Positions 16,875 to 47,002 of a stretch of 64,000 nt of DNA are shown here, in pieces. Position 1 is the first letter of the stretch. Every line of letters begins with the position of its first letter. The DNA comes from Pirellulaceae bacterium (GTDB taxonomy: Bacteria; Planctomycetota; Planctomycetia; Pirellulales; Pirellulaceae), in the NCBI GenBank assembly GCA_026004795.1, contig BPJV01000003.1:186001-250000 (forward strand), written 5' to 3'. Under the pieces are notes generated by a model. That model was not told where the DNA came from, did not search any database, and saw nothing but the letters and a program-made list of their open reading frames with translations. The position numbers and the translations under genes were made by a program.

Positions 16875-17139
16875 CGAGACGTCCACCGATTTGCAAGTCA
16901 GAGCGCGGGAATCGTTGAAGACCGCTTCGTGCTGCCGCTGCTGAGACACACGAGCAACTGGAACACACGAGGTACTCAGCCGCTCGGCAGCTGCGCCGCA
17001 CGGCAGCTGCGCCGCCCGGGAGACCGAGCCGCCCGGACTATTAAGCAGTCGACGAAGCCGCCATCGTTTTATCCCATTTCGGCGAAATGGTAGAACGTCA
17101 ATTTTCGAAAAAATGACCAGCCTGGAGTGCCCCGGGCCG

Positions 17140-18119: not shown

Positions 18120-19847
18120 CTAGCGGGTTGCCGGTGCTGGCGGTTGGCTGGATTCAGGCGCTTCAGGGGACGCGCCCGCCTCGGCAAGCTCGGTTTGACG
18201 CTGAGCGTAGTTCCATGGGAGCCAGGCATCGGGCTGGGAGGCCACGTCGTCGGCGTGGCGAAGCAACGCTACCAGATATTGATAAGGATTGATGCGATTC
18301 AATTCGCACGTATGGATCAGCGTCATGTAGACGTCACCCGCCTGTGCTCCGCGGGCTGAGCGATAGTAGAGCGAGTTCTTGCGGTGCAAAATCGATTTCT
18401 TCAGGGCGCGCTCGGCCACGTTGTTATCCAGAGGAGCACCGGGAACTCGTAAGAACTGCGTCAGCCGCTCCCAGTGCTTGAGCATGTAGTTGATCGCTTG
18501 CCCAAGCGCTGAATTCGGCTCCACACGCCGGTCGTCCAATTGCCGGGTCATCCATTTGTGTAGCCCGTCCATCACCCGCTGGCTCTTGGCACGGTGCAAT
18601 GCCAGCCGCTTCTGGGGAGACAATCCCTTACGCCGCGCCTCGGCATCCACGCGGTAGACGTGACTGAGCTGCCGGATCACATACTCCGTCTCTTCGGGGA
18701 ACACGTCGACCAGGTCCACGAAGTTCCGCCGCGCGTGGGCCAGACAATGGGCCACGATCGTTCGCAGCTCATCGGTCATGTTCCGCGACAACGCATCGCA
18801 CATCTGGATCGGCACAGCCAGTTCTTCCGGGCGATCGCGCAGCACCGCCGCCAGGTTCTCGCCCGCATGCCGATGCCCGCTGAAAAAGAGCGCAGCATCG
18901 AGCCCTTCTCGGCGGGCAACCACCGTCGAAGTGAACGTGCCAGTGCGAGTGCGACCCGAAGCGCAATCCGGTTTTTCCAAGCCCAGCTTATTCAGGATCT
19001 TGATCGACGTGTCGTCGTTGTGATACAAGTCCCAATGCGATGTCTCATGGATCAAGGCGTGGTAAACCAGCTTGGGGATGGGCAGGTAGGTGGCAACGAT
19101 TTGCCACTGCGTCGACGGCGGGAGGGGCGTGCCCAACGCCTCCTCCAGCCGCGCCAGTCGGTTGAAAGGCAACCCCGACCCGTATTTCAACAGAGCAATC
19201 ATGGCCGCGGATGTCTCGTCGTACTTCTGTCCCTGCGCTTCGGGCGGCGCCTCGGCGTGGAACAACTGTCCGCACAGAGTGCATCGCAATCGCTGCAGCC
19301 GATAGACCGTCGCTGCCAACGGCGGCTGGCCGCTGACCCGCACCACCACCCGCGGACCGATCTCGTAGAGCTTGCCGTCACCGCACTCCGGGCAGATGTC
19401 GTCAGGTCGCAATCGATCGTGCTCGACGCGGACCTCTCGCGCCGCCTGGTATTGGTCGGCCCCGTTGCGTCCATGTCCGGGCTGAGCGGGCGAGGCCGGC
19501 GACGCTGGTTCCGACGCGGCAGCGCCGTCCGTCTCAGCCCCCTCGGCCGCCGCCTGATCGTCCGACTTGCCGCGACCGATCACGTTCTTCAGCGTCTCGG
19601 TGTTGCCGAACAACACTCGCTTGAGCCGACTTAGCCGGACGTGGTCGTCACGCAACAGGCTCATCACATAGTCGTACGACCGCAGCACTTTCAGCAGCAG
19701 GTCGTAGTCCGACTCTTCCAACTTCCGCTGCTCGATCCGGTCCAGCAGCCGGTTCAAGTCGTCGATCGTGATGTCGACCACTTGCACCTCCGGCCGCGAT
19801 GAGCCTGATCGTCGTGATGGTCGTTTCCGTTTTGCCGAGCCAGCCAT
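18120..19847 (-). CDS. tnpC: IS66-A transposase TnpC, copy 2
   Basis: Full-length 575-residue TnpC with the same zinc ribbon, DDE core and IDNN-like C-terminal motif (PLDNNVAERALKKS) as copy 1. It is the most diverged of the four: among other changes it has DCASGRTRTG where copies 1, 3 and 4 have DSGSGRTRTG, and MTRQLDD for LTRQLDD. It keeps the long C-terminal tail TELAEAGASPEAPESSQPPA, which copies 1 and 4 have lost. Likely the best-preserved coding version together with copy 3. Confidence 0.92.
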   Translation of the reverse strand: MAGSAKRKRPSRRSGSSRPEVQVVDITIDDLNRLLDRIEQRKLEESDYDLLLKVLRSYDYVMSLLRDDHVRLSRLKRVLFGNTETLKNVIGRGKSDDQAAAEGAETDGAAASEPASPASPAQPGHGRNGADQYQAAREVRVEHDRLRPDDICPECGDGKLYEIGPRVVVRVSGQPPLAATVYRLQRLRCTLCGQLFHAEAPPEAQGQKYDETSAAMIALLKYGSGLPFNRLARLEEALGTPLPPSTQWQIVATYLPIPKLVYHALIHETSHWDLYHNDDTSIKILNKLGLEKPDCASGRTRTGTFTSTVVARREGLDAALFFSGHRHAGENLAAVLRDRPEELAVPIQMCDALSRNMTDELRTIVAHCLAHARRNFVDLVDVFPEETEYVIRQLSHVYRVDAEARRKGLSPQKRLALHRAKSQRVMDGLHKWMTRQLDDRRVEPNSALGQAINYMLKHWERLTQFLRVPGAPLDNNVAERALKKSILHRKNSLYYRSARGAQAGDVYMTLIHTCELNRINPYQYLVALLRHADDVASQPDAWLPWNYAQRQTELAEAGASPEAPESSQPPAPATR

Positions 19848-20096
19848 CGAGACGTCCACCGATTTGCAAGTCAGAGCGCGGGAATCGTTGAAGACCGCTT
19901 CGTGCTGCCGCTGCTGAGACACACGAGCAACTGGAACACACGAGGTACTCAGCCGCACGGCAGCTGCGCCGCCCGGGAGACCGAGCCGCCCGGACTATTA
20001 AGCAGTCGACGAAGCCGCCATCGTTTTATCCCATTTCGGCGAAATGGTAGAACGTCAATTTTCGAAAAAATGACCAGCCTGGAGTGCCCCGGGCCG

Positions 20097-26888: not shown

Positions 26889-26939
26889 TCGGCGGCTCAG
26901 CGGGACTGTTTAAGTCAGCCACGTTACTGATTCTCCTTG

Positions 26940-27068
26940 GTGCCGATCTTCGTGCCGATGCGCGATGTGCCGATCTTCGTGCCGATGCGCGATGTGCCGA
27001 TCTTCGTGCCGATGCGCGATGTGCCGATCTTCGTGCCGATGCGCGATGTGCCGGTCTTTGTGCCGATC
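26940..27068. repeat. 27-bp tandem repeat inside IS66-B
   Basis: Four exact units of GTGCCGATCTTCGTGCCGAT plus GCGCGAT (27 bases), then a fifth degenerate unit, start 50 bases after tnpC. On the minus strand they read in frame as a 9-residue repeat (HRHEDRHIA) without stops, an effect of the period being a multiple of three. Confidence 0.9.
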
Positions 27069-27473
27069 CGATGTGTCGGTCTGATGTGTCGGCCTGATGT
27101 GTCGGCCTGATGTGTCGGCCTGATGTGTCGGCCTGATGTGTCGGCCTGATGTGTCGGCCTGATGTGTCGGCCTGATGTGTCGGCCTGATGTGTCGGCCTG
27201 ATGTGTCGGCCTGATGTGTCGGCCTGATGTGTCGGCCTGATGTGTCGGCCTGATGTGTCGGCCTGATGTGCCGGTCTGATGTGCCGGTCTGATGTGCCGG
27301 TCTGATGTGTCGGTCTGATGTGTCGGTCTGATGTGTCGGTCTGATGTGCCGGTCTGATGTGCCGGCCTGATGTGTCGGTCTGATGTGCCGGTCTGATGTG
27401 CCGGCCTGATGTGCCGGTCTGATGTGCCGGCCTGATGTGCCGGCCTGATGTGTCGGCCTGATGTGTCAGCCTG
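27069..27473. repeat. 13-bp minisatellite inside IS66-B, about 31 units
   Basis: Head-to-tail units of GATGTGTCGGCCT, with variants in which TGTCGG is TGCCGG and CCT is TCT. Variants are clustered, which suggests local duplication rather than random change. Because 13 is not a multiple of 3, the array reads as a 13-residue periodic peptide (RHIRP / THQAD type) on the minus strand with no stop; this is not evidence for a protein. It ends 137 bases before the IS right end. Confidence 0.92.
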
Positions 27474-27610
27474 TGCTAATTGCTGCGCGTTAACTCGCGT
27501 CCGCCGCCCTGCCTGCGGAATCGTCCCTCTCACCTTCTTCTATCGAACCGAGCAAGTCAGACGGCCCCACCAACGCCCCCATCGGCCAATGGCCCTGCTG
27601 GGCGCTTACA

Positions 27611-27921: not shown

Positions 27922-29649
27922 CTAGCGGGTTGCCGGGGCTGGCGGCTGGCTGGATTCGGATGCTTCAGGGGACACATCCGCCTGAGAAAGCTCGGTTTGA
28001 CGCCGAGCGTAGTTCCAAGGGAGCCAGGCATGGGGCTGGGAGGCCACGTCGTCGGCGTGGCGAAGCAACGCTACCAGATATTGATAAGGATTGATGCGAT
28101 TCAATTCGCACGTGTGGATCAGCGTCATGTAGACGTCGCCCGCCTCTGCTCCGTTGGCTGAGCGATAGAAGAGCGAGTTCTTGCGGTGCAAAATCGATTT
28201 CTTCAGGGCGCGCTCGGCCACGTTGTTATCCAGAGGAGCACCGGGAACTCGCAAGAACTGCGTCAGCCGCTCCCAGTGCTTGAGCATGTAGTTGATCGCG
28301 TGCCCCAGCGCTGAATTCGGCTCCACCCGCCGGTCGTCCAATTGCCGGGTCAGCCATTTGTGCAGGCCGTCCATCACCCGTTGGCTCTTGGCTCGGTGCA
28401 ACGCCAGCCGCTTCTGGGGAGACAATCCCTTACGCCGCGCCTCGGCATCCACGCGGTAGACGTGACTGAGCTGCCGGATCACATACTCCGCCTCGTCGGG
28501 GAACACCTCGACCAGGTCCACGAAGTTACGCCGCGCGTGGGCCAGACAATGGGCCACGATCGCTCGCAGCTCATCGGGCATGTTCCGCGACAACGCATCG
28601 CACATCTGGATCGGCGCAGCCAGTTCTTCCGGTCGATCGCGCAGCACCGCTGCCAGGTTTTCGCCCGCATGCCGATGCCCGCTGAAAAAGAGCGCAGCAT
28701 CGAGCCCTTCTCGGCGGGCAACCACCGTCGAAGTGAACGTGCCGGTGCGAGTTCGACCTGAGCCGCTATCCGGTTTTTCCAAGCCCAGCTTATTCAGGAT
28801 CTTGATCGACGTGTCGTCGTTGTGATACAAGTCCCAATGCGATGTCTCATGGATCAAGGCGTGGTAAACCAGCTTGGGGATGGGCAGGTAGGTGGCAACG
28901 ATTTGCCACTGCGTCGACGGCGGGAGGGGCGTGCCCAACGCCTCCTCCAGCCGTGCCAGTCGGTTGAAAGGCAACCCCGACCCGTATTTCAACAGAGCAA
29001 TCATGGCCGCGGACGTCTCGTCGTACTTCTGTCCCTGCGCTTCGGGCGGCGTCTCGGCGTGGAACAACTGTCCGCACAGAGTGCATCGCAATCGCTGCAG
29101 CCGATAGACCGTCGCTGCCAACGGCGGCTGGCCGCTGACCCGCACCACCACCCGCGGACCGATCTCGTAGAGCTTGCCGTCACCGCACTCCGGGCAGATG
29201 TCGTCAGGTCGCAATCGATCGTGCTCGACGCGGACCTCTCGCGCCGCCTGGTATTGGTCGGCCCCGTTGCGTCCATGTCCGGGCTGAGCGGGCGAGGCCG
29301 GCGACGCTGGTTCCGACGCGGCAGCGCCGTCCGTCTCAGCCCCCTCGGCCGCCGCCTGATCGTCCGACTTGCCGCGACCGATCACGTTCTTCAGCGTCTC
29401 GGTGCTGCCGAACAACACTCGCTTGAGCCGACTTAGCCGGACGTGGTCGTCACGCAACAGGCTCATCACATAGTCGTACGACCGCAGCACTTTCAGCAGC
29501 AGGTCGTAGTCCGACTCTTCCAACTTCCGCTGCTCGATCCGGTCCAGCAGCCGGTTCAAGTCGTCGATCGTGATGTCGACCACTTGCACCTCCGGCCGCG
29601 ATGAGCCTGATCGTCGTGATGGTCGTTTCCGTTTTGCCGAGCCAGCCAT
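27922..29649 (-). CDS. tnpC: IS66-A transposase TnpC, copy 3
   Basis: Full-length 575-residue TnpC with intact zinc ribbon, DDE residues and the long C-terminal tail TELSQADVSPEASESSQPPA. The body is almost identical to copies 1 and 4, so these three are recent relatives and copy 2 is the outlier. Confidence 0.92.
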   Translation of the reverse strand: MAGSAKRKRPSRRSGSSRPEVQVVDITIDDLNRLLDRIEQRKLEESDYDLLLKVLRSYDYVMSLLRDDHVRLSRLKRVLFGSTETLKNVIGRGKSDDQAAAEGAETDGAAASEPASPASPAQPGHGRNGADQYQAAREVRVEHDRLRPDDICPECGDGKLYEIGPRVVVRVSGQPPLAATVYRLQRLRCTLCGQLFHAETPPEAQGQKYDETSAAMIALLKYGSGLPFNRLARLEEALGTPLPPSTQWQIVATYLPIPKLVYHALIHETSHWDLYHNDDTSIKILNKLGLEKPDSGSGRTRTGTFTSTVVARREGLDAALFFSGHRHAGENLAAVLRDRPEELAAPIQMCDALSRNMPDELRAIVAHCLAHARRNFVDLVEVFPDEAEYVIRQLSHVYRVDAEARRKGLSPQKRLALHRAKSQRVMDGLHKWLTRQLDDRRVEPNSALGHAINYMLKHWERLTQFLRVPGAPLDNNVAERALKKSILHRKNSLFYRSANGAEAGDVYMTLIHTCELNRINPYQYLVALLRHADDVASQPHAWLPWNYARRQTELSQADVSPEASESSQPPAPATR

Positions 29650-29930
29650 CGAGACGTCCACCGATTTGCAAGTCAGAGCGCGGGAATCGTTGAAGACCGC
29701 TTCGTGCTGCCGCTGCTGAGACACACGAGCAACTGGAACACACGAGGTACTCAGCCGCTCGGCAGCTGCGCCGCACGGCAGCTGCGCCGCACGGCAGCTG
29801 CGCCGCCCGGGAGACCGAGCCGCCCGGACTATTAAGCAGTCGACGAAGCCGCCATCGTTTTATCCCATTTCGGCGAAATGGTAGAACGTCAATTTTCGAA
29901 AAAATGACCAGCCTGGAGTGCCCCGGGCCG

Positions 29931-31068: not shown

Positions 31069-31671
31069 TCACGGCTTTACTACGCCATCCGGCCACTTTA
31101 ACTGTGAAGCATCGATAAAATCCACGCCCGTTAGCCCGGAGCTCTCGATAACGGTTTTTGCCCGTTCGTTAACAAGAATGTGCTTTGGATACTCCCTGAC
31201 CGTAAAGAAGTCGGAACCATCATACGCATCTTCGTCGACAATGATCCCGTGCTCAAAAGCCGAGTAGCGTCTCAGGCCACAAGCGTCACAGGTCCGCTTC
31301 AAAGTGATTCCGGAATCAGGGTGGGCAAAACCTCCGTCGCCGACAACTACAAACTCCCAAAGTTTCGGAATTCTGGACCGGTCCACGCGTTTTGCGATCG
31401 AGTCGATCACGACAGGTTCCACGCGGAAACCGGTTAATCCTGCCTCCCGTAGCTTTTGAAGTGCAATATCGGTTATGACCACATCACTCAAAAGCGTGGA
31501 CGAGAAATCAGTTATGCGATTCGAGAGAATATCTATACGTAACGGCGTGATTCGCCGCCCTGCTCGTTGATGCCCAGGGTTTTTCGGGCATTTAATTCCC
31601 TCCCAGTCGTTGTGAGGAGATAGTTCAACAAACCGATGGTTGGTAATGCGAAGGTCGAAGAACGTTGACAT
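31069..31671 (-). CDS. Probable immunity protein, double-CXXCG-like, partner of the DUF2380-type tip
   Basis: Protein of 200 residues from ATG 31671 (MSTFFDLRITNHRFVELSPH); the open frame upstream is the toxin shadow. It has a clear CDACG motif about 130 residues in and a degenerate CPKNPGHQRAG in the first third, resembling the double-CXXCG family that sits beside DUF2380 proteins in myxobacteria. The start lies 2 bases after the toxin stop, so the two are translated together. Immunity function is inferred from family and position. The C-terminus contains a mixed alpha/beta segment (VREYPKHILVNERAKTVIES). Confidence 0.65.
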   Translation of the reverse strand: MSTFFDLRITNHRFVELSPHNDWEGIKCPKNPGHQRAGRRITPLRIDILSNRITDFSSTLLSDVVITDIALQKLREAGLTGFRVEPVVIDSIAKRVDRSRIPKLWEFVVVGDGGFAHPDSGITLKRTCDACGLRRYSAFEHGIIVDEDAYDGSDFFTVREYPKHILVNERAKTVIESSGLTGVDFIDASQLKWPDGVVKP

Positions 31672-31673
31672 TG

Positions 31674-32648
31674 TCAGATCCCAAATTGTTCCCGCATTTT
31701 GGCTAACTGCTCGAGTATCTCCTCCGCACTCGCCGTCGGGTTTTTCTTGAAAAACTCTTCCCACACGCGGTTCCAGTTTCCACCTCCGTTCGTGTGAATG
31801 CCGTTCGGCTTGAGCCGATGCTTCGCCTGGTCTAGAGGAATCTTGAAATCTTCGATGTCGAGCCCAGCACGCTCAAAGTAGCCGCGCACCTTCTTTGAGC
31901 GCGGTAGGAGGTGATGCATCTCAATGACATCATCACATCCGTTATTATGTACCAGGACGCCGCTGGTGGCGACGCGGTAGAGGTGTTCGCCCTGGACGGT
32001 GAGGTTGTATACGCGGTGAGTGCCGGGGAGGGTGCGGCGGGCAACGACCGTAACCAGGCCGCCGACGCCGTCGAGCTGCTCGCCTTCAACCAGTTCCGCC
32101 GCGCTGAGCCACGCATTGCGGGTGACGCTGTAGAACTTGTGATTGCCCGTCGGGCGGAGGGTTTCGAGCCGGCCGTCCGGGCCGCGCAGGTCCAGCTCGA
32201 TGACGTCGCGGTTGAGGTGATTGACGGTCGTCAGAACCAGTCGGCCAGGGCCGGGCGGCGGTTGCGGGCACTGCTGGATCGACAGCACCGTGCCGGTCAG
32301 ACCTTCCGGCAGGCCCATGTCGACCAAGTCCAGCGGCAGCGGGACTTCGGCGCCTTCGCTCGCTTCGACCGCTTCGCACCACTGGTTCGACTGCACCGTG
32401 CGGACGTTGATGTCGTCGACGGTTCCGTCTTCCCAGACCTGGAATCGCTGAATCGTCAGCAGCTTATGCGTCTCCGGCCCCGGCTCGGTCAGGTCCAGGA
32501 ATTGTGAGCGATGGCTCGGTGGATTGTACGCCGGTTTGGGGGATCGAGGGCACGCCAGGGACTGGCGTGGCACTAAAGTAGTCCGGCAGTCCCTGCCGGA
32601 AGTGGTGCAGTCAAAACGCCCCTTCCAAACCAACCCCCAAAACCGCAA
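31674..32648 (-). CDS. Orphan Hint-domain cassette with DUF2380/HNH-like toxin tip
   Basis: The 5' part repeats, in this window, the pretoxin Hint anchor: DGTVDDINVRTVQSNQWCE, VLTTVNHLNRDVIELDLRGP, TGNHKFYSVTRNAWLSAAEL and VYNLTVQGEHLYRV with the closing VLVHNNG, the C-terminal half of an autoproteolytic Hint fold. The tip that follows (about 80 residues) has EMHHLLPRSKKVRGYFERAG, PLDQAKHRL and GNWNRVWEEFFKKNP, the pattern of DUF2380-type putative HNH nucleases (HH...H). The true start is unknown: the first 50 codons lie in the repeated intergenic module, so the Hint cassette has no trunk of its own and is likely silent until recombined. An immunity gene follows by 2 bases. Confidence 0.75.
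   Translation of the reverse strand: MRFWGLVWKGRFDCTTSGRDCRTTLVPRQSLACPRSPKPAYNPPSHRSQFLDLTEPGPETHKLLTIQRFQVWEDGTVDDINVRTVQSNQWCEAVEASEGAEVPLPLDLVDMGLPEGLTGTVLSIQQCPQPPPGPGRLVLTTVNHLNRDVIELDLRGPDGRLETLRPTGNHKFYSVTRNAWLSAAELVEGEQLDGVGGLVTVVARRTLPGTHRVYNLTVQGEHLYRVATSGVLVHNNGCDDVIEMHHLLPRSKKVRGYFERAGLDIEDFKIPLDQAKHRLKPNGIHTNGGGNWNRVWEEFFKKNPTASAEEILEQLAKMREQFGI
32551..32599. repeat. Paired-hairpin element upstream of Hint cassette 1
   Basis: CACGCCAG-GGA-CTGGCGTG followed after 13 bases by CCGGCAG-TCC-CTGCCGG. Both stems are perfect. The loop triplets are complementary and the cores are inverted repeats of one another, as in REPIN-type doublets. The same pair precedes the two other Hint cassettes. 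Confidence 0.85.
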
Positions 32649-32753: not shown

Positions 32754-32984
32754 TCAAAGCAGGTCAACCTCAGGATTTATCTGAGGCATACCGATTTCAT
32801 CGTTGCTCAGGCCGAAGACCTCAGCTTGCTGCTGAATTAGCGAAACAACTTCATGGTATGCCATCAAACGCCCGATGTCGTAATCAGTGTTCGATGAATC
32901 CCGCTCTTCTTTCGCTTCTTTGGCCTTTTCGACGATTAAGCCAACCAAATCTCGAAGGTAGTTTGTTACAACTGTGTCGTTCAT
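32754..32984 (-). CDS. Small helical protein, probable immunity partner
   Basis: 76 residues from ATG 32984 (MNDTVVTNYLRDLVGLIVEK), mostly helical and acidic (KEAKEERDSSNTDYDIGRL, then HEVVSLIQQQAEVFGL). The ATG overlaps the TGA of the upstream tip by four bases (ATGA). Position, size and coupling mark it as the immunity gene of that tip; no family recognised. Confidence 0.65.
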   Translation of the reverse strand: MNDTVVTNYLRDLVGLIVEKAKEAKEERDSSNTDYDIGRLMAYHEVVSLIQQQAEVFGLSNDEIGMPQINPEVDLL

Positions 32985-33781
32985 GACCCACCTCCCATAC
33001 TCCGTAGTAGCCCTTCTAGAATCTCCAACTGCTCTTGTAGTCTCACGATATCCGAGGGCCACTTATTCTTCAGCAAAGCTTGCTGCTGCCGCGGATCGAG
33101 CTTGTCAAAACCGGGAATGTACTTACCGGGATTCGCAATTTTGTCCTGATGTTCTGCAATTTGTTTCTTCAGCGAGTTGATACCTTTCTGAATTTGGGAT
33201 GCTGGCTTACCAGCGTAGTTTTTGAGGAATCCGGCATGCTTACCACCTTGCCGAGCAACTTCGAATGCACTCCTTGGGGCATTCTTGGCGAGCTGCTTTC
33301 CGGCCTCGGCGGCTTCGTCGCCGTATTTTGCAGCGTAGCGAGCAACTTTTCCACCCTTGCCGATGGCGTCGCCGTAGACTGGGATCATGGATGCGAATGA
33401 CAGGCCGGCGCCCACATGATCGCCGCGAGCCAATGAAATCACTCCGTTGACTCCATCGGCCGCTTCACCGATTACGGGAATGCAGCCCACTACGTCTAGC
33501 CCCAGTTGGACTTTGTCCCAAAAGCCACCCCAACCGGATCTGCTTGGCGAGCTGCTTGAATATGAAGTCGATTGCCCCGAGCCAGAGTAAGCGGTTGTAG
33601 TAGACGCCGCCGGACGAGCCGCCTTCTTCCTCGCCGAACACGTCACCTTGGTAGTCCCCGGCGTAACCATCGAGATCGCCGCCGTCGGATGAATCGCCGG
33701 ATTGGTCACTTGAGGAGGGGTCGGTGCTGCTGGGTGGATCGCCGGTGGTGTCGAGGTAGTCGAGCGGGAAAAGTTCTTCAA
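32981..33781 (-). CDS. Orphan pretoxin plus unassigned helical toxin tip
   Basis: The meaningful part begins near 33600. A Ser-rich linker leads to a pretoxin segment GFWDKVQLGLDVVGCIPVIG / EAADGVNGVISLARGD and GAGLSFASMIPVYGDAIGKG, hydrophobic and typical of regions preceding toxin tips. The tip (about 100 residues) has GGKHAGFLKNYAGKPASQIQ, KGINSLKKQIAEHQDKIANP and WPSDIVRLQEQLEILEGLL. Conserved His and Trp are seen, but the catalytic class is not recognised. The nominal TTG start at 33781 is out of frame with the trunk remnant upstream (33600-34125), which implies a frameshift near 33600. The immunity gene overlaps the stop. Confidence 0.65.
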   Translation of the reverse strand: MKNFSRSTTSTPPAIHPAAPTPPQVTNPAIHPTAAISMVTPGTTKVTCSARKKAARPAASTTTAYSGSGQSTSYSSSSPSRSGWGGFWDKVQLGLDVVGCIPVIGEAADGVNGVISLARGDHVGAGLSFASMIPVYGDAIGKGGKVARYAAKYGDEAAEAGKQLAKNAPRSAFEVARQGGKHAGFLKNYAGKPASQIQKGINSLKKQIAEHQDKIANPGKYIPGFDKLDPRQQQALLKNKWPSDIVRLQEQLEILEGLLRSMGGGS

Positions 33782-34125
33782 GAGCTTCTTCCAGCGGGGT
33801 CTTTTGCCAGGGGGCGCCGTTGGTGGGATGGTATTGGTAACCGGTTAGGTGGACTTCATCGTCACCTGAAACCGTGAACGACTCATCGATCTGGCCGGTC
33901 GATGGATCGAAGAGGGCGTTCCAGTTGGCCGAGCGCTGGAACGATGCATCGCGCAGCGATTGGTAATCCCAACCCATCTCGCCCAGCAACAAAACGGCCT
34001 GGTCGACCGAATCGTAATGCTGTTGGTAATCGACCGACGAAGTGGCCGACGAGGATGCCGAACCGTTCCACGTGAACCTGTCATCAGCGGCCAGGCTGGC
34101 CGACAGCGAGCCAGTACGGGACGGA
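33600..34125 (-). pseudogene. 3' end of a trunk gene, paralogue of the main toxin gene
   Basis: In frame it reads SLSASLAADDRFTWNGSAS, VDQAVLLLGEMGWDYQSLRD, ASFQRSANWNALFDPSTGQI and DEVHLTGYQYHPTNGAPWQK, closely matching residues near 960-1050 of the trunk encoded from 47002. Everything upstream of about 34125 is lost and replaced by repeats, so only an anchor of about 180 codons remains. It then shifts frame into the tip at 32981-33781. Confidence 0.75.
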
Positions 34126-36197: not shown

Positions 36198-36462
36198 CGG
36201 CCCGGGGCACTCCAGGCTGGTCATTTTTTCGAAAATTGACGTTCTACCATTTCGCCGAAATGGGATAAAACGATGGCGGCTTCGTCGACTGCTTAATAGT
36301 CCGGGCGGCTCGGTCTCCCGGGCGGCGCAGCTGCCGTGCGGCGCAGCTGCCGAGCGGCTGAGTACCTCGTGTGTTCCAGTTGCTCGTGTGTCTCAGCAGC
36401 GGCAGCACGAAGCGGTCTTCAACGATTCCCGCGCTCTGACTTGCAAATCGGTGGACGTCTCG

Positions 36463-38157
36463 ATGGCTGGCTCGGCAAAACGGAAACGACCATCACGACG
36501 ATCAGGCTCATCGCGGCCGGAGGTGCAAGTGGTCGACATCACGATCGACGACTTGAACCGGCTGCTGGACCGGATCGAGCAGCGGAAGTTGGAAGAGTCG
36601 GACTACGACCTGCTGCTGAAAGTGCTGCGGTCGTACGACTATGTGATGAGCCTGTTGCGTGACGACCACGTCCGGCTAAGTCGGCTCAAGCGAGTGTTGT
36701 TCGGCAACACCGAGACGCTGAAGAACGTGATCGGTCGCGGCAAGTCGGACGATCAGGCGGCGGCCGAGGGGGCTGAGACGGACGGCGCTGCCGCGTCGGA
36801 ACCAGCGTCGCCGGCCTCGCCCGCTCAGCCCGGACATGGACGCAACGGGGCCGACCAATACCAGGCGGCGCGAGAGGTCCGCGTCGAGCACGATCGATTG
36901 CGACCTGACGACATCTGCCCGGAGTGTGGTGACGGCAAGCTCTACGAGATCGGTCCGCGGGTGGTGGTGCGGGTCAGCGGCCAGCCGCCGTTGGCAGCGA
37001 CGGTCTATCGGCTGCAGCGATTGCGATGCACTCTGTGCGGACAGTTGTTCCACGCCGAGACGCCGCCCGAAGCGCAGGGACAGAAGTACGACGAGACGTC
37101 CGCGGCCATGATTGCTCTGTTGAAATACGGGTCGGGGTTGCCTTTCAACCGACTGGCACGGCTGGAGGAGGCGTTGGGCACGCCCCTCCCGCCGTCGACG
37201 CAGTGGCAAATCGTTGCCACCTACCTGCCCATCCCCAAGCTGGTTTACCACGCCTTGATCCATGAGACATCGCATTGGGACTTGTATCACAACGACGACA
37301 CGTCGATCAAGATCCTGAATAAGCTGGGCTTGGAAAAACCGGATAGCGGCTCAGGTCGAACTCGCACCGGCACGTTCACTTCGACGGTGGTTGCCCGCCG
37401 AGAAGGGCTCGATGCTGCGCTCTTTTTCAGCGGGCATCGGCATGCGGGCGAAAACCTGGCAGCGGTGCTGCGCGATCGACCGGAAGAACTGGCTGCGCCG
37501 ATCCAGATGTGCGATGCGTTGTCGCGGAACATGCCCGATGAGCTGCGAGCGATCGTGGCCCATTGTCTGGCCCACGCGCGGCGTAACTTCGTGGACCTGG
37601 TCGAGGTGTTCCCCGACGAGGCGGAGTATGTGATCCGGCAGCTCAGTCACGTCTACCGCGTGGATGCCGAGGCGCGGCGTAAGGGATTGTCTCCCCAGAA
37701 GCGGCTGGCGTTGCACCGAGCCAAGAGCCAACGGGTGATGGACGGCCTGCACAAATGGCTGACCCGGCAATTGGACGACCGGCTTGTGGAGCCGAATTCA
37801 GCGCTGGGGCACGCGATCAACTACATGCTCAAGCACTGGGAGCGGCTGACCCAGTTCTTGCGAGTTCCCGGTGCTCCTCTGGATAACAACGTGGCCGAGC
37901 GTGCCCTGAAGAAATCGATTTTGCACCGCAAGAACTCGCTCTTCTATCGCTCAGCCAACGGAGCAGAGGCGGGCGACGTCTACATGACGCTGATCCATAC
38001 GTGCGAATTGAATCGCATCAATCCTTATCAATATCTGGTAGCGTTGCTTCGCCACGCCGACGACGTGGCCTCCCAGCCCCATGCCTGGCTCCCTTGGAAC
38101 TACGCTCGGCGTCAAACCGAGCTTGCCCAGGCGGGCGTGACCCCCCAAAGCGTCTAA
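36463..38157 (+). CDS. tnpC: IS66-A transposase TnpC, copy 4
   Basis: 564 residues with intact catalytic core. It ends TELAQAGVTPQSV because a base change creates a TAA where copies 2 and 3 continue for another 11 residues. It shares FGNTETLKN with copy 2 where copies 1 and 3 have FGSTETLKN, a sign of exchange between copies. Confidence 0.92.
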   Translation: MAGSAKRKRPSRRSGSSRPEVQVVDITIDDLNRLLDRIEQRKLEESDYDLLLKVLRSYDYVMSLLRDDHVRLSRLKRVLFGNTETLKNVIGRGKSDDQAAAEGAETDGAAASEPASPASPAQPGHGRNGADQYQAAREVRVEHDRLRPDDICPECGDGKLYEIGPRVVVRVSGQPPLAATVYRLQRLRCTLCGQLFHAETPPEAQGQKYDETSAAMIALLKYGSGLPFNRLARLEEALGTPLPPSTQWQIVATYLPIPKLVYHALIHETSHWDLYHNDDTSIKILNKLGLEKPDSGSGRTRTGTFTSTVVARREGLDAALFFSGHRHAGENLAAVLRDRPEELAAPIQMCDALSRNMPDELRAIVAHCLAHARRNFVDLVEVFPDEAEYVIRQLSHVYRVDAEARRKGLSPQKRLALHRAKSQRVMDGLHKWLTRQLDDRLVEPNSALGHAINYMLKHWERLTQFLRVPGAPLDNNVAERALKKSILHRKNSLFYRSANGAEAGDVYMTLIHTCELNRINPYQYLVALLRHADDVASQPHAWLPWNYARRQTELAQAGVTPQSV

Positions 38158-39620: not shown

Positions 39621-40559
39621 TCATTTATAGGGGAGAAACGGGAGGCCTCGCAATTCTTGCACCCGCATGAACCGATACCCGATTTTCCAGATTTCGCGAG
39701 GCGTGAGTTTTTCACCTTTCGCCAATTCTGCTTTATACAGTTCCTTCATGAGTTTTTCATTCCAACCCATGGTGTGCAGCGCCGAGTGCGTGCCTTGGTC
39801 AAGTTCCACCGTGACTTTATCGACGTCAAATCCGCGTTCTGCGAACCACTGACGATGCTCCTGCGGAAAGATGTGATGGCGTGGAGGCCTAGCCGCTCCA
39901 GCCCGCACCTTGCTGACGACCGGCAAATCGCTAATGTCATCGTAGCACGTATTATGCACCAGGACACCGCTGTGGGCGACGCGGTAGAGGTGTTCGCCCT
40001 GGACGGTGAGGTTGTAGACGCGGTGGGTGCCGGGGAGCGTGCGCTTTCGCTCGACCGTGACCAGCCCGGCCACGCCGTCGAGCTGTTCGCCTTCACTCAG
40101 TTCCGCCGCGCTGAGCCACGCGTTGCGCGTGACGCTGTAGAACTTGTGGTTGCCCGTCGGACGCAGCGTTTCCAGCTTACCGTCCGTGCCCCGCAGGTCC
40201 AGCTCGATGACGTCCCGGTTGAGGTGATTGACCGTGGTCAGGACCAACCGCCCGGGCCGGGCGGCGGTTGCGGGCATTGCTGGATCGACAGCACCGTGCC
40301 GGTCAGGCCTGCGCGGCAGGCCCATTTCGACCAGATCCAGCGGCAGCGGAACTTCGGCGCCTTCGCGCGCTCCGACCAGCTCGCACCACTCGTTCGACTG
40401 CACGGTGCGGACGTTGATGTCGTCGACGGTGCCGTCTTCCCAGACCCACTCGGCGCGAATCGTCGAGCAGCTTGTGCGTCTCCGGCCCGGTTCGGTCAGG
40501 TCCAGGAATGTGAGCGATGGCTCGGTGGATTGCACGCCGGTTTGGGGGATCGAGGGCAC
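39621..40559 (-). CDS. Orphan Hint cassette 3 with DUF2380/HNH-like tip
   Basis: The Hint anchor is the same as at 31674 (LTTVNHLNRDVIELDLRGTD, TGNHKFYSVTRNAWLSAAEL, VYNLTVQGEHLYRVAHSGVL, VHN). Between about 40250 and 40320 it carries a +1 and a -1 indel relative to cassette 1, so residues there differ, and a further indel lies near 40490. The tip has RPPRHHIFPQEHRQWFAERG, DVDKVTVELDQGTHSALH and LTPREIWKIGYRFMRV, a DUF2380-like arrangement of HH...H histidines and a probable nuclease (inference). The nominal start at 40559 (MPSIPQTGVQST) is inside the repeated module, so no dedicated trunk or promoter is evident. Confidence 0.7.
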   Translation of the reverse strand: MPSIPQTGVQSTEPSLTFLDLTEPGRRRTSCSTIRAEWVWEDGTVDDINVRTVQSNEWCELVGAREGAEVPLPLDLVEMGLPRRPDRHGAVDPAMPATAARPGRLVLTTVNHLNRDVIELDLRGTDGKLETLRPTGNHKFYSVTRNAWLSAAELSEGEQLDGVAGLVTVERKRTLPGTHRVYNLTVQGEHLYRVAHSGVLVHNTCYDDISDLPVVSKVRAGAARPPRHHIFPQEHRQWFAERGFDVDKVTVELDQGTHSALHTMGWNEKLMKELYKAELAKGEKLTPREIWKIGYRFMRVQELRGLPFLPYK

Positions 40560-40605
40560 GCCAGGGACTGGCGTGGCACGAAAGTGGTCCGGCAGTCCCT
40601 GCCGG
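40557..40605. repeat. Paired-hairpin element upstream of Hint cassette 3
   Basis: Same doublet as at 32551: CACGCCAG-GGA-CTGGCGTG, 13 bases, CCGGCAG-TCC-CTGCCGG. It is followed at about 40665-40710 by the boundary motif (GGGGTGGCACCGTAAG). Confidence 0.85.
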
Positions 40606-40710
40606 AAGTGGTGCAGTCAAAACGCCCCTTCCAAACCAACCCCCAAAACCGCAACCCGCGGCCACAAAAGCACTTACGGCCAGAAATAAAGTGGGGTGGC
40701 ACCGTAAGTT

Positions 40711-41403: not shown

Positions 41404-42470
41404 CTATCGCGCGCTTATCACAAACTCCGAATGACATTGGTAATCGCGCATTTCGAAACAGCACGGGTTCGAGAATTTGTTTCCTGCGGTCCTCAGCGAG
41501 ATCTGGCAGGCCGAATACTCGTCCGCGGCTTCAGCCGCCTCTTGCAGATGAGCTCGTCCGGAGCAACCTCGGGATTGACGATCCAACCATCTCGACGGGA
41601 ACTTCTTTGATACCAAGTCGCGATGCCATCGCTGGCAGCGCGCGCCCTGTGGCTGTCCATCGTCGATCAGCTTTCGTCCGTGACAACAGCGACGGATCTC
41701 GAATTGCACGGAAAGTGCCCCGCTAGCGTCGCCCTGGTCATCTTTCGTTGCACGCCTGAAGCGCTTGATCTTCTTGCCGCTGAATTCCGATTTTAGCTGG
41801 CGACCGTAGAGCTCGGAGACATTCGCGACACGGCCGCACCCGTTATTATGCACCAGCACGCCGCTGTGTGGCGACGCGGTAGAGGTGTTCGCCCTGGACG
41901 GTGAGGTTGTAGACGCGGTGGGTGCCGGGGAGCGTGCGCTTTCGCTCGACCGTGACCAGCCCGCTCACGCCGTCGAGCTGTTCGCCTTCGACGCAGTTCC
42001 GCCGCGCTGAGCCACGCGTTGCGCGTGACGCTGTAGAACTTGTGGTTGCCCGTCGGACGGAGCGTTTCCAGCTTACCGTCCGGCCGCCGCAGGTCCAGCT
42101 CGATGACGTCCCGGTTGAGGTGATTGACCGTGGTCAGGACCAACCGCCCGGCGGCAGGCGACCACGAGGCGGCGGTTGCGGGCACTGCTGGATCGACAGC
42201 ACCGTGCCGGTCAGGCCTTCGCGGCAGGCCCATTTCGACCAGATCCAGCGGCAGCGGGACTTCGGCGCCTTCGCGCGCTCCGACCAACTCGCACCACTGG
42301 TTCGACTGCACCGTGCGGACGTTGATGTCGTCGACGGTGCCGTCTTCCCAGACCCACTCGGCCCGAATCGTCGAGCAGCTTGTGCGTCTCCGGCCCGGGT
42401 TCGGTCAGGTCCAGGAATGTGAGCGATGGCTCGGTGGATTGCACGCCGGTTTGGGGGATCGAGGGCACGC
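41404..42470 (-). pseudogene. Frameshifted Hint cassette 2 with decayed tip
   Basis: Third copy of the Hint anchor. VLTTVNHLNRDVIELDLRRP and TGNHKFYSVTRNAWLSAAEL are in one frame. A 1-base insertion near 41995 shifts the frame so that the VYNLTVQGEHLYRV part is lost, and a further insertion near 41868 (CTGTGTGGCGAC against CTGTGGGCGAC) brings VLVHNNG back. The tip then reads GRVANVSELYGRQLKSEFSG and KKIKRFRRATKDDQGDASGA, with no recognisable end. A silent remnant. Confidence 0.7.
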
Positions 42471-42646: not shown

Positions 42647-42916
42647 CTACGAGCTATGAAGCATCCGTTCCACTTTCTCGATTTCCTCCAATACCATTTC
42701 GTTTTGTTCTTCCGGCTGGCACATGAAGTGAATGTGTTCTAGTTTCCCGACTAGAGAATTCAACGTAGTCGTAAGCGAATCGCCTGCACTAGCTTCAAGG
42801 CCAGAGGCGATACCCTCAATCGATGATGCCAGTTCGACGATTGACATATCCCCCGAGCGAAATCGATTAAACGCGCCTTCGATCATTTCGACCAGTCGTT
42901 TGCTGTGTTCGTCCAC
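42647..42916 (-). CDS. Small helical protein, probable immunity partner of the main tip
   Basis: 89 residues, helical and acidic: MDEHSKRLVEMIEGAFNRFR, SIVELASSIEGIASGLEASA and EEQNEMVLEEIEKVERML. The start lies 23 bases after the stop of the ribonuclease-like tip. No family recognised; immunity role inferred from position. Confidence 0.65.
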   Translation of the reverse strand: MDEHSKRLVEMIEGAFNRFRSGDMSIVELASSIEGIASGLEASAGDSLTTTLNSLVGKLEHIHFMCQPEEQNEMVLEEIEKVERMLHSS

Positions 42917-42939
42917 TCGTTGTACTCCATCGCCGTTGA

Positions 42940-45900
42940 CTAGTGCCGAATAATCGAAATCACAATCCCGTTTTCCAGTATGACTTCAACATCCCCGAGT
43001 ATTTTACTTACTCGCGTTGTAGATCCAACGACACGAATGCCGCCTATCCGCCCGTGCTGAATGACTTCTTCAACCACCATTGACGGAACACCGCGTCCTG
43101 CTAAGCCTCCAGGCGCATTTCCAAAAGACTTCGGAACCATTCTTTGTATGGCGTGTTCCGTGTAGAGACGTCCGTTTATGTTGGCATAGACTCGTCCACC
43201 TCGCGTAACTTTCGGCAGCTCACGCCACGTACCCCATTTCGCACCAAACAGCGCTGTCTCCCTTGGGGCAACTACTCCAGTGGCCGCTCGCGCAACTCGC
43301 AAACCAGCACTGAGGCTACCACCGAGTGCGCCACCGAAGATACCGGACTTGGCGCCGTCCCTAGCTGCATCTTCCAAGTTATCAGCCGTTGCAGCGCTAA
43401 TCAAACCGCTAATGGCACCGGAAATGGCTCCAGATTTAGCACCGACACTCGCTCCGATAGTAGCCCCGGGGATGGCGCCGACCCCGCCCTCTGCCGACCC
43501 CACGATAGCACCTGTGACCGCTCCTGTCACTGCTCCCGATACTGCGCCTGTCGCAGCTCCACTCGCCGCGCCGGTTGCAGCGCGTGCCCCTGCTCGTGCG
43601 TAAGCCTTTGCGGTTTCCAGGAATCCGGCTGCGTCCTCACTCCACGGCCAGACCCACGTCTCGCCGAACAGTCGCAATCCACCACTTCCGCCATCACCAT
43701 CCTCATCGGACTCGGTGTCTTGCCATCCTGTGTAGGATCCCCACGTCGTATCGCCTCCATCGGAAGATCCGTCGGGGTAGTCGCCTGGAGAGGAATGGCT
43801 GTCGCCGGAAGCGTCGAGGTAGTCGAGCGGGTAGAGCTCTTCGAGGGCTTCTTCCAGCGGCGTCTTTTCCCAGGGGGCGCCGTTGGTGCGGATGGTATTG
43901 GTAACCGGTTAGGTGGACTTCATCGTCACCTGAAACCGTGAACGACTCATCGAACCGGCCCGTGTAGGGATTGAAAACGGCGTTCCAGTTGGCTGTTCGC
44001 TGGAAAGAAGCATCGCGCAGCGATTGATAATCCCAGCCGGTTTCGCCAAGCAGGATGATCGCCTGGTCAACGGAATCGAGGTGCTGTTCGTATTCCACCG
44101 AAGACCTGGCGTCCGCCGACGCCGATCCACTCCAGGAGACCGAATCGTCAGGATTCAGGCTGGCCGCGAGAGAACCACCGCTGCTCCACTCGTCGATGAA
44201 CCTCAGGTGCAGCAACGAATTGTCTTCAGCGTCCCTCTCCCAAATGTCGGTGTAGTTGGCATGTTGACGTTCGGACAGAGTTGAACCACCAGTGGCGAGG
44301 ATATCCAGGACCGCGTACCCCTCGCCACCGACGCCGGCGGAGAGCGAAGCGGTGGCATCGCTGACCGCACTGGCCATCGCCTGGTAGGATCCGTCTCCAC
44401 GTCCGAAATTGGCCCCGTAGTAGTCGAGTCTGGCCGTGTTATTGCGAGTACCGGTGCTAAAGATTGGGCCGAATTGCGTTTGCTCGCCCGTCTCGATGTC
44501 CCAGTTCTCTTGACCGATCACTTCGACATTGAGGATGAGGAAATCAAACCCATCGAACTCGCCGGTGCCTGAGAGCGTCGCTTCACCGTCAAGTAAATCC
44601 TCGCCATCAACGCCGAGCACGTCAGTATCCGCCGCATCGTTGCTCGACGAAGCATCTTGGTCGAATGTAGAATCCGTCGTGCTTCCGGTCGCGGAAGTCG
44701 CTAGGATGGATCCATCGCTGCCGACCCATCCGAGCGATCCGTCGGAAGTTGCTGCTAATTCGGCAGCGCTCGATGCGTCCAGCTCTTCATCACCAGACTG
44801 CGTGTAGTCCCACCTCAACATCAACTTGGCATTCGTCGTTACGGTTCCATGCGGTGTGGTCGGTGTGGTCGTTGGCTCTGGGATAAAAACAAAGAGGAAC
44901 TGGTCGTCGCCGGAGAAATCGAACGAGCTATCAAGCAGGGCAGACACGTGTCCGGCAGCCTCGGCCCAGGTTCCTTGTCGCAGAATACCCTGCAGGTCGA
45001 AGGAGCCGTTGATTGCGCCTCCGATCGCGGCGCGAAGTCCAGTGGAAGCGGTCATGGCATGACCGTAACCGTCGTAGTCGCCCAGGGGATTGAACGGCTG
45101 GGGATCCTCTGGATCGAAATTGCGAATCGCGGGCTCGACGTCAATCAAATCCAACCCCAGGTCTCCGCCTTCGGGCAAGGGAGTGGTGGGGCCGCCGGGG
45201 GACCACCAGGGGCTGGTCGCGCCGCCGCCTGTGGGTATCAGGTTGCCCGATGAACTGCTGGCCGTCCACGACAAATCGACGTCGGCATTGCCGCCGAACG
45301 AATAGTTGCCGCTGAGCGCGACGGCTCGTTCGACCTGGCCATCGGCCTTAAGGGATGGCGTGCTGCTGACGTGGATTCCCTCGACGGCCGTCAACGTCAG
45401 GCCCAACGCGGCGCTCCAGGAGGCTTGCGCCACGAAATCGTCGGGCAGGTCCCAGTCGTCCCCACCGTCGGTGCTTGATCCCGATTCGTAGTTGTTCGCG
45501 TACACATCGTTGACCGGCGCCGTCTCGTCACCCGGCTGACTCGATCCGTCCGTCGATCCGCCACCGGTGGTCGTGCCGGAAGATCCGCCACCGGAACCGC
45601 CGTCACCCGAATCTGGGGCCGGAGTGGCTGTGGAGGAACCGGAAAGGGATGCAGTCAGCGAAATGGAATCGGACAGGTCGCCGTCGAACGACCATTTGAC
45701 GCCGGCCGCTGCCGGCGTGCTCATGCCGCGCGATGCAATGAACGTGAACATCACGAACGTGCTGCGTTTGATTTCGATCGACGCCGACCAATTGCCTGTT
45801 TCTTGCAACTTCGGCCCGGTCGATCCGTCTCCTGCGTCGGAAGATCCGGCATCGCTGCCGCCGGTGCTGGTGTCGCCCGACGAAGCGTCGCTGCCGCCTG

Positions 45901-47002
45901 TACTGGTTCCGGACGACGTTTGCGTCGTCGGACCAGAGTCGCTGCGGTTCGGGTCGGGCTTCAGGTCGTCCAGATCGCCGGACAGGCTGGCACTGGCCGT
46001 TGCGTTGAACACCAGCAGGAAACGCTCGGTAAACATCCACTGGTCGGGTCCTACCCACACGACATCGATCGCGTGAACCCAGTTCAATCCGTCGGCTTGA
46101 CGATCGGGGTTGGTGAAGGAGCTGAGGTCGAAACTGCCATGCGTGCTGACGATCGATGTGGTCGATTGCGTCGATGGGACGAAGTCGTCGAGGTTCCCAC
46201 TGGCTTTCGCGATCTCGAACGAGGGGAACTCAAAAGTGGGAACGGATATGCTGCTCGAGCTCGAGCCGGACGCACTGTCGGAAGAACCTTGATCGGACGC
46301 CCCTTCGCCTTCGCCGACCATATCGGAAGTCGCTGAATCGGCTGGCAGCGTATCGGGCAGGACCTCCTCACCGCTGGCGGTGCAAAATGCACCCACCGCG
46401 ATTCGGCCATCGTTTGCCGTCAGGTTGGTCGGCTGACTAGGACGCGACGGTCCTGCAACGATTGCCAGGGATCCGAGAAATGCGGTCAGGTCGCCGCGGC
46501 CCAATCGATCGGCTTGCCCAGCGATCGGATCGGCCTGCACCGACGTCGCGGATTGTCCCGATTCGGCCTGTACCGTGTCCCAATTGGTTGCTTCAAAACC
46601 AAGCTGCGTTGCCATCTCCGCGCCGAGCATCTGCGGCAGAATCGTTTGCTGCGACGGGATTTGGCTGAGCACGTCGCCGACTTGTGGTCGAGCCCCTAAA
46701 GCGCTCTCCTGTGCGCCGAACGATTGATCGACCGCGCGGGTCAAGGCATCCCGAATCTCGGGCCCATCGAATTTCGCGGATTCGATTCTCTGATTGAGTT
46801 TGTCCCGCGACTCGACGTCAATGGGGCCTTGAAAGCTCAGACGAACGCTCGGTGCGTCACCGGCAGCATATTGCGCCGGAAGCAAATCCGGCCCGAGTGC
46901 GCTAAGATCCGCGGCCAGCAACTCGCGCCGCTCGAGCGACTCAAGGAGGATTGAACGAAATCGAGATGCCCTTCCTAGCTTCTCCCCCCCGTAAATTAAC
47001 AC
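42940..47002 (-). pseudogene. Main polymorphic toxin: secreted trunk plus glycine-zipper and BECR-like tip, one frameshift
   Basis: Trunk of about 1040 residues from GTG 47002. The planctomycetal export motif LLESLERRELLAAD is at residues 19-32. Long Ser/Gly/Asp/Thr-rich beta-type regions follow, with no Rhs repeats seen, ending DEVHLTGYQYHP. At about 43889 one extra base relative to the paralogue at 33826 throws the frame off; the nominal ORF ends at 43703. In the corrected frame it continues TNGAPWEKTPLEEALEELYP, then GETWVWPWSEDAAGFLETAK, a run of Gly/Ala zippers (ARAATGAASGAATGAVSGAV and onward, membrane-active type) and the tip. The tip has YANINGRLYTEHAIQRMV, VEEVIQHGRIGG and GDVEVILENGIVISIIRH, resembling DUF4258/BECR-fold ribonuclease tips (inference). 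It may be a pseudogene, a phase-variable gene or a sequencing error. The start lies in a C7 tract; see findings. Confidence 0.75.

Follow-up and report, generated by a model that had tools for sequence, protein, structure and literature searches.

Introduction

Polymorphic toxin systems of the Rhs, CdiA, MuF and PT-HINT kinds deploy C-terminal toxin tips that are exchangeable among carriers, and the BECR fold is described in the same source as a four-stranded meander sheet preceded by a helical segment, with a conserved serine or threonine in strand 4 of the BECR ribonucleases (RNases) (PMC3482391). A structurally characterized pair is CdiA-CT/CdiI of NC101 (PDB 5I4Q and 5I4R), in which the toxin has four strands, two helices and four strands and the immunity protein has four helices (PMC9086364). 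Glycine zippers have also been described in toxins: that of Tde1 is required for translocation (PMC10240207), the C terminus of EsxX is described as a toxin that depolarises membranes and contains a glycine zipper (PMC12744356), and the toxicity of TelE needs one (PMC10434224). Here we analyse a 64,000-nt stretch of the genome of a Pirellulaceae bacterium of the Planctomycetota (assembly GCA_026004795.1, contig BPJV01000003.1, positions 186,001 to 250,000; hereafter the window), in which a reverse-strand locus joins a compact C-terminal domain, the tip, to a small adjoining gene and a large upstream reading frame. The best explanation of the locus as a whole, to which we give a probability of roughly 80%, is a polymorphic toxin tip of the BECR RNase type with its cognate immunity gene, presented by a carrier. 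The toxin-immunity family is new and apparently unnamed, and of a well-known kind of weapon.

Results

A tip and its partner gene

The coding part of the tip, a C-terminal domain of 105 residues, occupies 42943-43257(-). The open reading frame (ORF) that ends in it was listed as 42940-43677(-), 245 residues from a TTG codon, and the frame stays open to 43908, which makes 322 residues, so that the TTG at 43677 is unconvincing as a start and merely the start codon chosen by the ORF lister. From its N-terminal end this frame runs through the 3' end of a repeated joint, a linker, a glycine-zipper segment and the tip. The partner gene begins with a GTG 23 nt past the stop codon of the tip, with a GGAG 8 nt upstream of it, and its product is acidic (pI 4.6, with 17 D/E versus 7 K/R); the tip is basic (pI 10.9). 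Hidden Markov models (HMMs) made without the window's own rows were run against the 770 stop-to-stop ORFs of at least 50 residues in the window: the tip HMM picked the tip frame at E 2.7e-26 (runner-up 0.51) and the partner HMM, from 24 relatives, picked the 89-residue ORF at E 1.8e-13 (runner-up 1.8). The pair is therefore more than chance. Both ORFs lie where an initial annotation of this DNA had placed them and the pairing it described is real; the tip, it turns out, ends the longer 322-residue frame, which is out of frame with the carrier.

A widespread tip with exchangeable carriers

The tip alone has no Pfam match at E<=10 and no match in NCBIfam or PHROGs. When a five-sequence tip alignment was used as the query for wide contig scans, relatives were found at 33 loci among 84,980 species genomes and at one viral-contig locus, 34 in all; the wide scan relied on one conserved peptide pattern, and this number is therefore a lower bound. 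With the single tip sequence as query, no match in the genome or viral scans was confirmed, phage records gave no tip match, and sequence searches of the PDB returned nothing for the tip frame and two chance matches for the tip profile. A search of the phylum gave matches at E<=0.01 in 10 of 392 genomes, namely the source genome, one convincing relative (G337, E 5.9e-15) and eight genomes with E > 0.001 that were set aside, the ORFs of four of which were inspected and were chance-like. Relatives are also present in plasmid records of Paracoccus, Leptospira weilii and, weakly, Bacillus arachidis (E 5e-12, 6e-10 and 0.08).

The family extends over Nitrospirota, Bacteroidota, Bdellovibrionota, Elusimicrobiota, Pseudomonadota, Actinomycetota, Bacillota, Planctomycetota and Thermodesulfobacteriota. 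The nearest relative of the window tip is in a Rhs protein of Nitrospiria (59% identity), and the planctomycete tip L024, from a Phycisphaeraceae genome and letter for letter the same as that of G337, is 40% identical. The position of the nearest relative in Nitrospiria and the presence of others in many phyla suggest that the tip has spread by horizontal transfer. Carriers were scanned at 10 of the 34 loci and comprise RHS repeats (three), hemagglutinin repeats (Fil_haemagg_2, one), PT-TG (three, one of them also with PT-HINT) and Phage_Mu_F (one), with none in the remaining two; unrelated carriers thus precede the same tip in 8 of the 10, as is typical of polymorphic toxin tips (PMC3482391). 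Some Ntox families (e.g. Ntox41 and Ntox49; PMC3482391) have motifs about as short as those of the tip, and none of them was matched among the Pfam models compared.

Four loci with frame breaks within the tip (L035, L037, L042 and L047) are omitted from the tip alignment, and the plasmid loci L012-L014 from tip alignment A3 and from A4. In one of these, on the Leptospira weilii plasmid (L013, 4551-9777), the tip lies behind an apparent HINT-domain end, with an IS66 transposase and a second Hint-domain gene nearby, again a cassette-like setting.

Predicted fold and candidate active site

The AlphaFold2 (AF2) model of the tip, computed from 31 sequences, has a mean predicted local distance difference test score (pLDDT) of 88, with 77 of the 105 residues at pLDDT >= 90, and a predicted template modelling score (pTM) of 0.78. 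Its topology is βββ-αα-ββββ, in which three short strands precede helices at 34-40 and 59-68 and strands at 70-77, 80-87, 90-95 and 98-104, and the predicted order of two helices followed by four strands is that of the BECR fold. In a structural re-alignment (VIA-align 2) of the 1000 best Foldseek chains, of which 999 aligned, ranks 1-15 are all contact-dependent inhibition (CDI), toxin-antitoxin or ribonuclease-inhibitor entries, at Z scores from 6.6 to 3.1 (ranks 11 and 12, both CDI, being classed by entry rather than by chain), and the first unrelated row appears at Z 3.0. The top match is CdiA-CT NC101 (Z 6.6, root mean square deviation 3.2, 82 aligned), followed by MqsR (Z 5.0), 1TFO (4.6), RelE and ParE (4.5 to 4.1), and then CDI and HigB-type entries; 1TFO, which is titled as a ribonuclease with its inhibitor, is presumably colicin D. 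Among viral models a phage protein of the DUF4258 family ranks highest (Foldseek probability 1.00, TM-score 0.54, E 0.045). The model and its highest-ranking matches agree with the initial annotation, which saw a compact BECR-like domain here and proposed fold prediction as a check: the predicted fold is compatible with BECR RNases. The likeness to DUF4258 that it also noted survives as a resemblance, in a profile comparison as well as in the viral match, and is weak, below the family cut-off.

Seven residues are invariant in all 31 tips (R30, Y32, H35, A36, R39, P42 and E63) and R55 is kept in 29. Position 101, in the predicted last strand, is T in 29 and S in two, and this is the residue type that BECR RNases conserve in strand 4. 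We consider H35, R39, R55, E63 and S/T101 a candidate active site. The BECR-type reading of the tip is supported by the model, and RNase activity is a prediction that goes with it.

Two partner families that follow the tip

At the 34 tip loci the partner is helical in 24, strand-rich-looking in seven (A5) and of a third kind in one (L016), with no usable partner in two (L018 and L035). In 29 of the 30 intact-tip loci, the exception being L018, the partner ORF lies between a 17-nt overlap and 61 nt past the tip stop. With the window's 89-residue ORF the helical family has 25 members, all 25 of which are recovered by leave-one-out HMMs (worst E 1.7e-5), and the helical HMM also finds the Paracoccus and Leptospira partners from outside the alignment (E 4.9e-19 and 6.8e-13); the Bacillus partner belongs to the second family (E 4.4e-41). 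That the two are one family was rejected at an hhalign probability of 0.1.

AF2 predicts the window partner to be a four-helix bundle (pLDDT 92.7; helices 3-20, 26-41, 46-65 and 68-88). Structurally the model matches any four-helix bundle, a Z of about 10 being uninformative for bundles, and the absence of CdiI of NC101 from the structural matches listed carries no weight. The helical-partner profile finds only unrelated-looking helical proteins in the PDB, the best a designed coiled coil (E 3.5e-5). No Pfam family recurs in the 25 helical members, the sole Pfam match of the window partner being DUF4904 at E 0.057, below the cut-off; the second family has none, the window partner has no NCBIfam match, and three partners have no match in PHROGs. 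The earlier description of an acidic, helical protein of no known family thus holds in each part, its helical nature as a prediction.

When the 31 intact tips are placed on a tree, all six that have the second partner type fall into a single starred clade (100/100); the helical partner accompanies 23 of the other 25. The partner label changes three times on the tree versus a mean of 7.6 when labels are shuffled, and 0 of 200 shuffles gave a number as low. Partner labels track the tip tree, and the partner is therefore inherited with the tip, as expected of a cognate immunity protein. The immunity reading is strongly supported by this pattern of co-inheritance, and the small helical neighbour very probably protects the producer.

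The tips found with the second partner (L030, L038, L043, L045, L046, L047, L048 and L014) have a long insert after HALERMAP, and that partner is mostly about 107 residues long and of the YDEYELLELFESEP type.

A glycine zipper peculiar to this copy

The segment upstream of the tip has more GxxxG pairs than any of 5000 same-letter shuffles, which average 5.4 +/- 1.8 (maximum 12) against the 17 observed. A looser count (G/AxxxG or GxxxA) gives 23, which 575 of the 5000 shuffles reach and which is therefore explained by composition alone; of the roughly 25 zipper repeats first described, then, the zipper itself is real and the looser repeats are what composition gives. The Gly-zipper_OmpA model matches at E 0.0036, below its cut-off, and the best 19-residue hydropathy is 1.45. 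The corresponding upstream stretch (up to 250 residues) is measurable in 32 of the 34 relatives, the other two being too short, and 11 of the 32 have fewer than 108 residues in frame; the highest GxxxG count among them is seven (L035 and L040), with counts of 0-3 in 28. As the relatives have at most seven where there are 17 here, the zipper is a feature of the linker of the window copy, and the notion that it marks the tip family was rejected. At this place ten sister cassettes of the source genome have different stretches, which are hydrophobic and in part rich in glycine (best 19-residue hydropathy 1.25-1.98, GxxxG 0-8).

The carrier, the joint and a set of cassettes

The Planc_extracel model (PF07595), which describes an export motif of planctomycetes, scores 15.5 bits (E 0.014) on the carrier and 20.8 bits (E 0.0034) in a search of the genome, against a cut-off of 25.5; because the scores fall short of it and a motif is visible by eye, we call the carrier LEPR-like only. 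The source genome (G000; 5.59 Mb in 17 contigs) has 13 PF07595 matches at E<=0.01, five of them above the cut-off. In the window, carrier and tip lie in different frames and the switch falls inside the joint, so that the copy found here may be a silent one, or may reflect mutation or misassembly.

A search of the source genome with the carrier gave 25 matches, most of which span little beyond its last 90 residues, the N-terminal half being covered only by the window's own and by one on C5; this other long carrier ends before its joint. The joint profile (A7, 96 positions) likewise gave 25 matches, at 21 places after pieces were merged; 11 of the matches span the full 96 positions in a single open frame, and several are short fragments. 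Compared with one reference copy, the DNA of the joint is about 80-98% identical, the window's copy having the lowest value at 79.6%. Twelve of these places were translated through to the following region. Their tips differ from one another, except that L100 and L106 are the same, and the tip is frame-shifted in L103 and L107. Most of the displaced cassettes have a small ORF behind the tip: in 9 of the 12 the tip frame ends no more than about 15 nt from the start of an ORF of 89-189 residues, the ORFs of L100 and L106 being alike and that of L108 overlapping by about 50 nt. Among nine cassette tips scanned, three are above cut-off for EndoU (E 2e-5), Colicin_E5 (2.5e-7) and Ntox28 (2.1e-14), and six match no family. 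To judge from their sequences, most joint copies, which come without the N-terminal part of the carrier, look like displaced cassettes.

In a draw of 294 genomes from the phylum the joint was found only in the source genome (0 of 293 others), and it occurs in diverged form in 2 of 14 congeners, with matches at E 2e-13 and 4.3e-9 in G401 and one, interrupted by a stop, at 3.8e-7 in G402. In G401 a LEPR-like carrier continues as one open frame of 1101 residues through the diverged joint into a C-terminal region, and carrier, joint and tip can therefore form one protein. Of the diverged joints in open frames in G401, L130 leads to an HNH-like end, so judged by eye, behind which is a 158-residue frame, and L132 has a HINT-like cassette downstream.

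Table 1. Features of the toxin locus, and related cassettes in the window and elsewhere in the source genome (G000). Positions are those of the window unless a contig is given.
Feature	Position	Strand	Details and basis
Putative immunity protein	42647..42916	(-)	89 aa, GTG start; ORF call, HMM, AF2 four-helix bundle
Predicted BECR-fold toxin tip	42940..43257	(-)	105 aa + stop; 34 relatives, AF2 model, structural matches
Glycine-zipper segment	43276..43599	(-)	residues 104-211 of 322-aa frame; 17 GxxxG
Linker, joint to zipper	43600..43812	(-)	first part acidic, Ser/Gly-rich; translation
Joint 3' part, tip frame	43813..43890	(-)	A7 positions 72-96, E 1.1e-5
Joint 5' part, carrier frame	43883..44104	(-)	A7 positions 1-74, E 4.8e-44
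Carrier ORF	43703..47002	(-)	1099 aa, Ser/Gly/Asp-rich
Carrier N-terminal motif LESLERRELLAAD	46907-46948	(-)	LEPR-like, by eye
Displaced second joint copy (L107)	33750..34040	(-)	A7 E 6e-61, open over all 96 positions
ORF behind displaced joint	32981..33781	(-)	different tip, other frame than joint; ORF list and L107 translation
EndoU cassette L098	G000 C3:733884		distinct small ORF adjoining tip
Ntox28 cassette L105	G000 C5:247260		distinct small ORF adjoining tip
Colicin_E5 cassette L108	G000 C10:211533		distinct small ORF adjoining tip

Neighbouring features

Two PT-HINT cassettes of the window, 39621-40559(-) and 31674-32648(-), have SitA6/DUF2380-like tips (PF09533, E 1.3e-6 and 3.8e-15), and behind the latter is an immunity-like ORF (31069-31764) for a SitI6-like double-CXXCG protein (PF09535, E 4.6e-9); we take this to be a SitA6/SitI6-like pair of the kind known from myxobacteria. 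A further HINT cassette, 41404-42468(-), shares four blocks of 97-98% DNA identity with 39975-40695, but is broken into several frames, and ends in a short tip without a family. Four near-alike ORFs of 582-612 residues (15201-16949, 18120-19958, 27922-29724 and 36388-38157) are presumably transposases of the IS66 type, and a 207-residue ORF of TGTSDRHIRPAHQ-type repeats at 26910-27533(-) is probably a DNA tandem repeat, not a gene. Elsewhere in the source genome a Rhs-end ORF (L124, C1:629962-630138) has a DUF4258-like tip (A3 E 1.2e-6; PF14076 E 0.0016, below cut-off), behind which lies a 92-residue acidic ORF that neither partner HMM recognises (helical-partner HMM E 1.8).

Discussion

In the model proposed here, a large planctomycete surface-type carrier would present the 105-residue tip by way of the joint, the acidic linker and the hydrophobic glycine-zipper segment, and the tip would cleave tRNA, most likely, or another RNA of translation in the cytoplasm of a competitor. 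It is possible, by analogy with Tde1, that the glycine zipper assists the tip across the target membrane. In the producer, the acidic, predicted four-helix product of the adjoining gene would bind to the basic tip and so shield its active site.

Several observations weigh against this reading. Foldseek finds nothing in the PDB for the tip at E<=0.001, and all Z scores of the tip lie below 8, a range where a merely common arrangement is possible. The hhalign match to DUF4258 (probability 80.6, E 1.3e-5) rests on 30 columns, and PF14076 gives seven weak matches among the 31 tips, the best at E 0.086 and all below the cut-off. The catalytic residues listed for NC101 (R200, E236 and H248; PMC9086364) fall at different places from the tip invariants, compared by position along the chain only, so that a shared fold need not mean a shared mechanism. 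No relative of the tip was found in the 14 congeners searched, the relatives have far fewer GxxxG pairs upstream, and the frame changes within the joint. A BECR fold alone is, moreover, no proof of RNase activity, as ParE toxins have this fold without RNase residues (PMC11980606), and ParE and RelE chains score alike against the tip (Z 4.5). The domain might thus act as ParE does, or otherwise than as an RNase, by blocking a protein target such as gyrase. We think this improbable: the invariant H35, R39, E63 and S/T101 resemble a catalytic set, the best structural match is a tRNase (PMC9086364), some of the sister cassettes carry RNase families, and CdiA tips of the DUF4258 family are listed as 'tRNase (?)' (PMC11630599). 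Nor do we see much likelihood that the zipper is the active part, depolarising the target membrane, with the C-terminal domain a worn-out or regulatory appendage. Glycine zippers do occur in membrane-acting toxins such as EsxX (PMC12744356) and TelE (PMC10434224), and the 17 GxxxG pairs here are in keeping with that role, but what is conserved across phyla is the tip and its partner and not the zipper (0-7 GxxxG upstream in the relatives where measurable), the best hydropathy of the segment is no higher than 1.45, and the invariant polar H, R and E persist in the tip.

A different question is whether the locus still functions. It may be no more than a remnant, silent or dead, left by the decay of a cassette in a region rich in mobile elements and making no toxin now, with perhaps only the immunity gene still useful; we put the chance of this a little short of even, and it is compatible with the toxin-immunity explanation of what the domain is. 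The frame change in the joint, the broken HINT cassette next door and the truncation of the other long carrier speak for decay, whereas the frames of tip and partner are intact, the invariants are kept, the window has other long genes with open frames, and an error of sequencing or assembly would give the same picture, as would a silent cassette that has yet to recombine. A more speculative proposal is one that we regard as doubtful and put forward only tentatively: the out-of-frame carrier, the truncated carrier and about a dozen joint-tip cassettes, several of the RNase type, might together be a cassette-switching arsenal, in which displaced cassettes recombine through the DNA of the joint into an expressed carrier and so swap weapon and antidote together.

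The polymorphic toxin catalogue gains a tip of wide distribution and two immunity families that have no Pfam entry, and with them a clean natural comparison in which one toxin family, in two sister clades, is matched by two unrelated antidotes. More unusual is that a planctomycete has so large a set of cassettes, behind a carrier and joint that were seen only in the source genome and, diverged, in two congeners.

Among described systems the best structural match of the tip is CdiA-CT NC101 of Escherichia coli, whose family is defined by cleavage of the tRNA acceptor stem that depends on EF-Tu. The partner and the NC101 immunity protein are both four-helix proteins, a likeness of kind only; the two toxins are 13% identical in the structural alignment, CdiA-CT NC101 is not among the matches of the tip profile at E<=10, and its carrier is CdiA, unlike the LEPR-like carrier here. 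The tip resembles DUF4258 (PF14076) in its HAxxRM start and its VExVIxxG helix, in a comparison with a profile (A6) made from 22 of 30 loci of the phylum genomes (eight were omitted, for contig ends, an internal stop and, for L068, no stated reason). It differs in extra N-terminal strands with WxxW and GRLY and in a long loop between the helices, and plain membership of DUF4258 was rejected, since the window tip does not match PF14076 even at E 10 and none of the 31 tips reaches the cut-off. The tRNase domains of colicins D and E5 have the BECR fold that is predicted for the tip, the former being presumably represented by the 1TFO match, and one tip member matches Colicin_E5 at E 0.012, below the cut-off; there is no family-level sequence relation, and their immunity proteins are others. 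In colicin D a histidine (H611) and a serine (S677) are described as essential (PMC3482391).

Tde1 of Agrobacterium, like the tip frame, combines repeated GxxxG with a C-terminal nuclease in one protein, there an Ntox15 DNase; its zipper is N-terminal, and it belongs to a type VI secretion system (PMC10240207). Delivery by such a system was rejected for the source genome, where the sheath gene VipB was not found in a search that did not extend to other delivery machines. A difference from the polymorphic toxin systems with Rhs, CdiA, MuF or PT-HINT carriers is that the LEPR-like carrier with this joint was found only in the source genome and, in diverged form, in two of the 14 congeners; with those systems as described the locus shares an exchangeable tip, a joint, an adjoining immunity gene and displaced cassettes (PMC3482391).

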